This document shows, piece after piece, positions 3,198 to 4,109 of a stretch of 22,533 bases of DNA; the stretch's first letter is position 1; each line of letters begins with the position of its first letter. Both the position numbers and the translations under genes were made by a program. The stretch lies in the IMG/VR virus record IMGVR_UViG_3300011187_000064, positions 1 to 22,533 of that record; one strand, given 5' to 3'. A model generated the notes under the pieces. The model worked only from the letters and a program-made list of their open reading frames with translations. It searched no databases and was not told where the DNA came from. The stretch is from a virus.

Positions 3198-4109
3198 ATG
3201 AAACAATTGACATTGAACTTTCAAAACGATTCGGAAGCTCCTGGAGAAACGATGATATTATCGTTACCGGGGGCTTCCCTTAACCGTGCCAACCTTATTC
3301 ATCAGCAGGTAAAAGACTTGGTAAGGAAGACGATAGACATCTCTGGCCTGAAATGCTTAGGGCAATTAGAGAGATTAAGCCCAGGTACATCGTGGGCGAA
3401 AACGTTTCTGGGTTACTTAGTTGGTCAGGGGGATTGGTATTCGAAGAGGTGCAATCTGACTTGGAAGCTGAAGGGTACGAAGTACAACCGATTATACTTC
3501 CAGCTGCAAGTGTCGGAGCTCCCCACAGAAGAGATAGAATCTGGTTTGTTGCCTACTCCAATGGCGCAAATAAGAGAAACAACAATCGAGAAAACGAAAG
3601 AAAGACAGAAAAAATACGGAGGGAAAAGAAGGGCTATGTACCTACAAAACTTTGCGGTATTGGGGATGCTTCCGACACCAACAACTCAAGAACCAACGAG
3701 CAAAGCGGAATTAACGGAAACAGGAAGAAGGAAAACAAAGGACGGAAAGAGCAGCCACAGCCTGAATTTGGGAAGAATGGCAGGAATGGGACTACTTCCA
3801 ACACCGAGAGAAGCTGCCTCGAGGGGGAATGCATCAAAGGACAGGGGAAAGGGAAACTTAGAGGATGCCATTGCAAAAATGATGCTGCCGACACCAAACG
3901 CAGCGGAGGGCGAAAAATATACTCTAAAATGGAAAAAGGGCAGCCAAATGGGAACAGCATTAACTCCATTGATGAACAAAATTACTGGGAAGAGTTCCCA
4001 ACTCAAGCCCCAATTTGTGATGGAGATGATGGGCTTTCCTCCAAATTGGACGGAATTACCTTTCCTAGATGGAGAACCGAATCAATTAAAGGAGCAGGAA
4101 ACGCAATAG
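3198..4109 (+). CDS. nested overprinted protein with LPTP repeats
   Basis: A 303-codon open frame lies wholly inside the methyltransferase gene, shifted by +1. It begins MKQLTLNFQNDSEAPG, has WAKTFLGYLVGQGDWYSKRC at 66-85, and has TWKLKGTKYNRLYFQLQ at 88-104. Four LPTP motifs start at residues 117, 157, 199 and 229 (LLPTP or MLPTP). The end reads LKPQFVMEMMGFPPNWTELP, which resembles the motif around GFP in C-terminal parts of cytosine methyltransferases. Other non-coding frames in this window stay near 110 codons or less. From memory, proteins with LPTP repeats and the MGFPxxWT ending occur beside phage cytosine methyltransferases, which supports real coding. Function is unknown; a role with the methyltransferase, perhaps in target recognition, is a guess. 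The next in-frame Met is at 3252. Confidence 0.65.
   Translation: MKQLTLNFQNDSEAPGETMILSLPGASLNRANLIHQQVKDLVRKTIDISGLKCLGQLERLSPGTSWAKTFLGYLVGQGDWYSKRCNLTWKLKGTKYNRLYFQLQVSELPTEEIESGLLPTPMAQIRETTIEKTKERQKKYGGKRRAMYLQNFAVLGMLPTPTTQEPTSKAELTETGRRKTKDGKSSHSLNLGRMAGMGLLPTPREAASRGNASKDRGKGNLEDAIAKMMLPTPNAAEGEKYTLKWKKGSQMGTALTPLMNKITGKSSQLKPQFVMEMMGFPPNWTELPFLDGEPNQLKEQETQ
3546..3896 (+). repeat. four dispersed copies of a dual-coding 15-base motif
   Basis: Copies lie at 3546-3560, 3666-3680, 3792-3806 and 3882-3896, spaced 120, 126 and 90 bases. In the nested frame each reads (L/M)LPTP. In the methyltransferase frame the last three read as ASDTNNS, TSNTERS and AADTKRS, while the first lies on the motif VIII end FVAYSN. 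The bases are close but not identical (for example atgcttccgacacca and atgctgccgacacca). The repeat therefore shapes both proteins and lies in the variable region between motifs VIII and IX. Confidence 0.7.

Follow-up and report, generated by a model that had tools for sequence, protein, structure and literature searches.

The virus record IMGVR_UViG_3300011187_000064 of IMG/VR, analysed here over positions 1 to 22,533 (one strand, 22,533 nucleotides (nt); hereafter the window), carries a gene for the C5 cytosine methyltransferase Dcm that is split by an in-frame stop codon at its catalytic motif and overlapped by a second long reading frame. How could such a gene yield an enzyme, and how did the stop come to lie there? 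The locus is most probably a phage Dcm gene with an overprinted +1 gene, invaded by an HNH cassette that would carry its own translational-bypass site. An earlier note had described it as a large gene nested inside a phage cytosine methyltransferase gene. Homologues support the two-frame part of that description, yet it leaves out the interruption of the outer gene and overlooks the stop, an adjoining hairpin, and the HNH module.

A stop codon within the catalytic motif of Dcm

Read from 3032, the Dcm frame reaches NDDIIVTGGFP, meets TAA at 3281–3283, and goes on, its frame unchanged, with CCG TGC CAA (P-CQPYSSAGKRLGK) through ENV, APHRRDR, and GNAIVPQ to 4171. Relative to the normal GGFPCQP, there is a 6-nt insert consisting of TAA and one codon, and the TAA falls exactly between GGFP and CQP, the catalytic motif. 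Motifs I, IV, VI, VIII, and X of C5 cytosine methyltransferases are all present (PF00145), but not in one continuous open reading frame (ORF), and the gene would encode an ordinary Dcm only if the stop were bypassed. The second frame does not, as had been claimed, lie entirely within the methyltransferase frame, which is broken between 3032 and 4171 by the TAA; this stop also rules out plain overprinting as the whole account of the locus. An HNH ORF upstream (2616–3035) and a broken second Dcm start (2506–2580) had likewise escaped the earlier note.

The same stop at the same codon was found in six further loci of a homology scan, and the design CCN, stop, 0–3 nt, CCN/CTN/TCN, TGC is common to at least 54 distinct Dcm loci with a stop at motif IV (stop loci, cited individually by number, as in L190). 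These were collected by the homology scan, by TAA/TGA/TAG pattern scans, and by an unbiased 6-nt scan, all covering the GGFP–CQP context, and were filtered by the ENV motif, which dropped one further stop case (L152). Distinctness was judged by short protein keys, and the set holds a few near copies, such as L005 and L007. The CCN ahead of the stop was part of the search pattern; the unbiased scan, which accepted any 6-nt insert, agreed, every match in Dcm context starting with a stop and chance matches outside Dcm carrying arbitrary codons. A pattern scan of GTDB gave 2 true cases of 21, both in metagenome-assembled genomes.

All three stop codons are used (31 TAA, 17 TGA, and 6 TAG), so it is the stop itself that is selected, not a base or a residue of the inner frame. 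The codon directly ahead of TGC, here called the landing codon, is CTN in 25 loci, CCN in 20, TCN in nine, and nothing else. It is separated from the CCN preceding the stop (the take-off codon) by 3 nt in 49 loci, 4 nt in one, and 6 nt in four, and it stays beside TGC while the gap length varies. Thus CCN, CTN, or TCN adjoins TGC in each of the four 9-nt inserts (TAATGACCT, TGATGACCT, TGATAACTG, and TAAGGACCG), three of which contain tandem double stops (L188, L203, and L207), and the landing codon still adjoins TGC in L190, whose 7-nt insert, TGAATCA, is out of frame. A dedicated scan for 3-nt inserts made of the stop alone found no Dcm case.

Decoding of the stop by a near-cognate or suppressor tRNA, which would lengthen the product by two to three residues ahead of the catalytic Cys, agrees with the frame-preserving 6-nt and 9-nt inserts and with the C that is usual after TAA, a leaky context. 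Such readthrough is nevertheless highly improbable, given the tandem stops, the out-of-frame insert of L190, the lack of any stop-only insert, and the restriction of the following codons to Pro, Leu, and Ser, Ala and Thr being absent. Extra residues within GGFPCQ would, moreover, be expected to impair catalysis by C5-methyltransferases.

The take-off codon is also biased when compared with 52 uninterrupted Dcm relatives of the window (controls). Its third base is G, T, or A but never C in the stop loci: CCC is found in 0/54 against 16/52 controls, and CCG in 28/54 against 1/52. These figures bear on a +1 frameshift at CCN-stop of the kind known from RF2, by which the Dcm N-terminus would be fused to the inner protein. 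The RF2 layout has a G-rich stretch 3 nt ahead of the shift codon, as does the present site, and the inner frame is in +1 and open across it. However, the absent codon is CCC, which slips best into +1 before U, whereas the codon that has risen is CCG, which re-pairs poorly in +1. A frameshift would also leave the YYN landing rule unexplained, and in L190 a +1 shift leads back to Dcm, not into the inner frame. We regard it as more improbable still than readthrough.

The hairpin and a proposed stop-hop

The sequence directly upstream of the stop forms a two-part stem-loop (−28.8 kcal/mol, z −4.3) whose 3′ arm finishes on the first base of the CCT take-off codon. In the 23 loci with equal spacing, 96% of the lower stem is paired, and compensatory changes are seen at pair 11–48 (GC in 16, CG in seven) and pair 14–45 (AU, GC, UA, and CG). 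A strong covarying hairpin abuts the take-off codon in 46/54 stop loci and 2/52 controls; the median minimum free energies and z scores are −27.2 kcal/mol and −5.5 for stop loci, and −5.8 kcal/mol and −0.05 for controls. Stability exceeds that of versions recoded with synonymous codons (p<0.05) in 47 of 53 stop loci and in two of the 52 controls, and the hairpin is not accounted for by the encoded protein. A smaller hairpin within GGSTTCC alone, closed by an N(-1)/N(8) pair, was rejected, as it shows no covariation and the real partner lies ~35 nt upstream. Three loci (L006, L030, and L043) have a cassette-type Dcm N-terminus without stop or HNH, and their hairpins are weaker and broken; these are probable revertants by precise loss of the insert.

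The stop and hairpin could serve to switch Dcm off, leaving an N-terminal fragment only, with the locus kept for the inner protein or for a selfish HNH gene. In keeping with such programmed truncation, no start codon in frame would bring back a fragment that includes the catalytic Cys, and in most loci the inner frame passes through the insert without a break. On the other hand, the downstream motifs VIII and X are kept in 47/49 and 43/49 stop loci, respectively, and the Dcm N-terminus is under purifying selection, with a ratio of nonsynonymous to synonymous substitution rates (dN/dS) of ~0.2. Under truncation the landing codon would be free to vary in principle, yet it is CCN, CTN, or TCN in 54/54, and past the site the inner frame of L086 and L188 closes after just 43 and 67 codons, respectively, with Dcm and the hop module intact. 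Truncation is, in our judgement, unlikely. The narrower idea that the stop is kept for the inner frame only was discarded because TAA, TGA, and TAG give different inner residues, and because of the short inner frames of these two loci.

We propose that the ribosome hops over the stop, and that the loci probably form a widespread, mobile class of short bypass ("stop-hop") in phage Dcm genes, spread by HNH and restoring the catalytic motif exactly. The ribosome would halt with peptidyl-tRNA-Pro on CCN and the stop codon in the A site; termination after proline is slow. The hairpin would then re-form behind the ribosome, its 3′ arm pairing with the first take-off base, and pull the mRNA out of the decoding site. 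The tRNA-Pro (anticodon NGG) would jump 6 nt in the window and re-pair with CCN, CTN, or TCN through at most one G–U pair. The landing codons of all 54 loci require no more than one G–U pair in their first two positions, and TTN and purine landing codons would be absent because these two bases must pair with G36 and G35 within that limit. Reading would resume at TGC to give GGFP-CQPYS without added residues (expected junction peptide ...VTGGFPCQPYSSAGK), and Dcm activity would be retained. The avoidance of CCC fits suppression of +1 slippage, and the enrichment of CCG fits a weak take-off codon.

Knowledge of efficient bypassing in bacterial and phage systems has so far come largely from a single thoroughly studied example, T4 gene 60. 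There the ribosome bypasses a gap of ~50 nt, with a stop after take-off, a 5′ stem-loop, and a link to a homing endonuclease (PMC5009743); the gene 60 insert lies near a homing-endonuclease invasion and is thought to protect the site (PMC5009743 and references there). The Dcm loci share the stop directly past take-off, the 5′ stem-loop, and the homing endonuclease, and in both cases the jump, here a proposed one, regains the downstream segment. In contrast to gene 60, the gap is only 3–6 nt, the host gene is Dcm, the landing codon may differ by one G–U, the hairpin abuts the take-off codon, and the arrangement occurs in many phages and is apparently mobile. Short stop-hops have long been expected, but a 2016 review knew of no natural in-frame case (PMC5009743). 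Synthetic stop-hops in Escherichia coli, in which codon-stop-codon over 9 nt yields one amino acid (PMC5009743), have the same codon-stop-codon layout but are constructs, whereas the present loci are natural. Our search of the open-access literature found no report of such an element. If the proposal is true, these loci would provide the first in-frame stop-hop found in nature, inside a region that is also read in a second frame. The natural variants come with built-in controls (gap lengths, landing codons, hairpins, empty sites, and apparent revertants), so that the requirements of a ribosome jump become directly testable. Annotation pipelines are likely to fragment such genes or to label them pseudogenes.

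The HNH cassette and its empty site

An HNH ORF lies just upstream of Dcm or within it in 35/54 stop loci, as against 0/52 controls (tblastn; Fisher 1.6e-14), a first regular-expression search having found 14. Within the single homology search plus the window, the figures are 7/7 and 0/52 (Fisher 2.9e-9). This helix-turn-helix (HTH) plus HNH ORF has a fixed position, from 655 to 239 nt before the site where it is an adjacent ORF and from ~455 to 57 nt before it where it is in frame inside Dcm. A TTTG...TTTG block similar to that in the window stands 4 nt ahead of the HNH start codon in 6/11 of the HNH loci checked. HNH of a second type occurs inside Dcm in L086, L095, L102, L121, L132, L133, L135, L136, L147, L164, L182, L190, and L207, mostly as an in-frame fusion placed after the N-terminal motifs and ahead of GGFP, in a second layout of the same module. 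In L100, the HNH gene is inverted beside a stop-bearing Dcm, on the opposite strand and 334–705 nt upstream of the site. Among 397 Muribaculaceae genomes there is a single HNH-Dcm fusion, and it has the stop; no full-length HNH-Dcm fusion was found among INPHARED phages.

Two loci with an uninterrupted Dcm, L002 and L015, are ~96% identical to the window over 148–2580 (L015 from 110), and L002 is again 95.8% identical over 3284–4212. Given these flanks and the empty site in both relatives, 2581–3283 replaced 136 bp. On its right side the inserted segment ends with the third base of the stop; the landing codon after it is a proline codon that belonged to the recipient. Remnants of a Dcm start like that at 2506–2580 precede HNH in L003, L005, L097, and L150. 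The best reading of 2581–3283 is as a mobile HNH cassette that would have installed the stop. HNH would cut the uninterrupted motif IV sequence and repair would copy the cassette in, the extra 6–9 nt at the cut site then protecting the invaded gene. A group I or II intron was considered and rejected: no Rfam match was obtained in the window at gathering scores, and excision of 2581–3283 would also remove Dcm residues needed before GGFP.

On a tree of the Dcm core, which has few columns and rough support, the stop is scattered, with 11–14 changes in bootstrap trees and at least five forced by well-supported branches, and the nearest relative of the window is the stop-less L002. Sequencing or assembly artefacts, or decay of pseudogenes, might be suspected in metagenomic contigs, and Dcm copies broken elsewhere by single mutations do occur (L028, L069, and L030). 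The position, stop, landing rule, covarying hairpin, and HNH link are, however, common to 54 distinct loci in which purifying selection continues, and the probability of this explanation is close to negligible.

The nearest mobile element is the ShiLan domain of mycobacteriophages, a homing HNH inserted into DNA methylases without intron or intein (PMC11855218). In both systems HNH invades phage methylase genes, but the insertion layout and the hosts differ, and the description of ShiLan mentions neither a bypass nor a stop at its junction, in contrast to the TAA at 3281. The cassette would provide a second, independent link between homing endonucleases and bypassing, and a general route for selfish nucleases into essential motifs without splicing.

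Several observations weigh against a mobile cassette with a hop site. HNH is missing from 19/54 stop loci, which we ascribe to later loss or to short contigs. The evidence is comparative throughout, and the controls were drawn from relatives of the window instead of from a random or matched sample of Dcm genes. True Pro landing codons are found in only 20/54 loci, and the G–U pair at position 2 of CTN is not an ideal match. The signal of selection on the Dcm C-terminus past the inner stop is weak (dN/dS 0.47 vs 0.39, over a short region). C usually follows TAA, but T often follows TGA, and a context for weak termination is therefore not shared throughout. Finally, T4 gene 60 needs a nascent-peptide signal, and the likeness seen here covers the stop, the stem-loop, and the endonuclease.

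The overprinted inner gene and its surroundings

The second frame had been reported as a 303-codon gene in +1 relative to Dcm, with four LPTP motifs and a C-terminal MGFPPNWTELPF. All of this holds for the ATG-started ORF, which sits in a stop-to-stop open run of 320 codons, and the remaining shadow frames are indeed short (111 codons, then 106 or fewer). The earlier proposal would have been undermined by stops scattered through the inner frame of homologues; most of the 80 viral relatives found by a scan for loci encoding the inner protein have no inner stop across the matched span, and the overlap is not refuted. The inner protein and Dcm are in the identical relative frame in 80/80 of these loci.

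In the window the inner frame stays open for 273 codons past the motif IV site, against a mean of 26 under synonymous shuffling of Dcm codons (0/500). The medians are 251 codons, against 30 shuffled, for controls (p<0.01 in 51/51) and 226, against 38, for stop loci (p<0.01 in 40/49). Inner-frame identity lies above the expectation based on Dcm in 99.7% of 3691 pairs; at 45–55% Dcm identity, it is 0.35 where 0.26 is expected. Judged from sequence conservation, the inner 303-codon frame is a real second gene. Its protein matches positions 36–282 of the 329 of phrog_1008 with residues 17–288, and the overlap is already in databases, though unexplained there: both ORFs are annotated in the record of Paenibacillus phage Tadhana, and phrog_1008 and the ORF pairs of Paenibacillus larvae phages represent the same inner family, again located within Dcm in its +1 frame.

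Searches of Pfam, NCBIfam, and PADLOC matched the inner protein to no family. No Dcm motif or fold was detected in the window's copy, which shows no methyltransferase domain in Pfam or NCBIfam, and the public label "DNA methyltransferase" on phrog_1008 appears to be inherited from the outer overlapping gene. Its AlphaFold model is weak (predicted local distance difference test (pLDDT) 60, predicted template modelling score (pTM) 0.29), and Foldseek against the PDB returned nothing below E 0.4. The C-terminal half consists of shuffled LPTP modules common to different loci; long, near-identical modules (e.g., DAYTENLTKKEQKFGNSGTLAQEV) occur in otherwise different genes in L088, L089, L092, L119, L128, and others. 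This sharing suggests that the target-recognition region of Dcm, which is read in two frames, has been shuffled as cassettes. At a guess, the inner protein may be a partner or regulator of Dcm.

Table 1. Features of the Dcm locus in the window
Feature	Position	Strand	Basis
Recipient Dcm 5′ remnant (MKHGSLFSGIGGFDLAAQWMGWENV), severed by the putative cassette	2506–2580	+	96% identity to start of uninterrupted L002/L015 Dcm; identity ends at 2580
Promoter (TTTG-N20-TATCTTTG), presumably of Bacteroidota type; cassette left edge	2580–2611	+	Sequence
HTH + HNH endonuclease ORF, 139 amino acids (aa), putative homing endonuclease	2616–3035	+	Pfam HNH_3 (PF13392) E 4.9e-17; PADLOC homing endonuclease 5.6e-7
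Putative mobile cassette, 703 bp: promoter, HNH, replacement Dcm N-terminus, hairpin, take-off codon, stop	2581–3283	+	Filled/empty pair with L002, L015
Dcm 5′ segment, 83 codons, motif I to GGFP	3032–3280	+	PF00145, phrog_363; dN/dS ~0.2 in stop loci ahead of overlap
5′ stem-loop: lower stem 12 bp, 3233–3244/3267–3278; upper stem 7 bp, 3248–3254/3259–3265	3233–3278	+	Folding, covariation, synonymous recoding
Take-off codon CCT (Pro of GGFP)	3278–3280	+	CCN ahead of stop in 54/54, by search design
TAA stop, Dcm frame	3281–3283	+	TAA/TGA/TAG at same place in at least 54 distinct loci
Landing codon CCG, the recipient's own GGFP Pro codon; proposed resumption at TGC 3287	3284–3286	+	Aligns with CCC of L002
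Dcm 3′ segment (CQPYS..ENV..RDR..GNAIVPQ), would be expressed only on passage of the stop	3284–4171	+	PF00145 E 1e-19
Inner overprinted ORF, 303 aa, LPTP/MGFPxxWT protein	3198–4109	+	phrog_1008 E 1.3e-22; conserved in 80 viral loci

A 102-aa ORF of unassigned function (2202–2510) separates terL from the Dcm remnant and overlaps the start codon of the latter. The genes around the locus form an ordinary structural series of a tailed phage (196–14671), in the order terS, terL, Dcm cassette, portal, head protease, and major head, with the cassette placed between the terminase and portal genes and a tape measure gene at 11660–14671.
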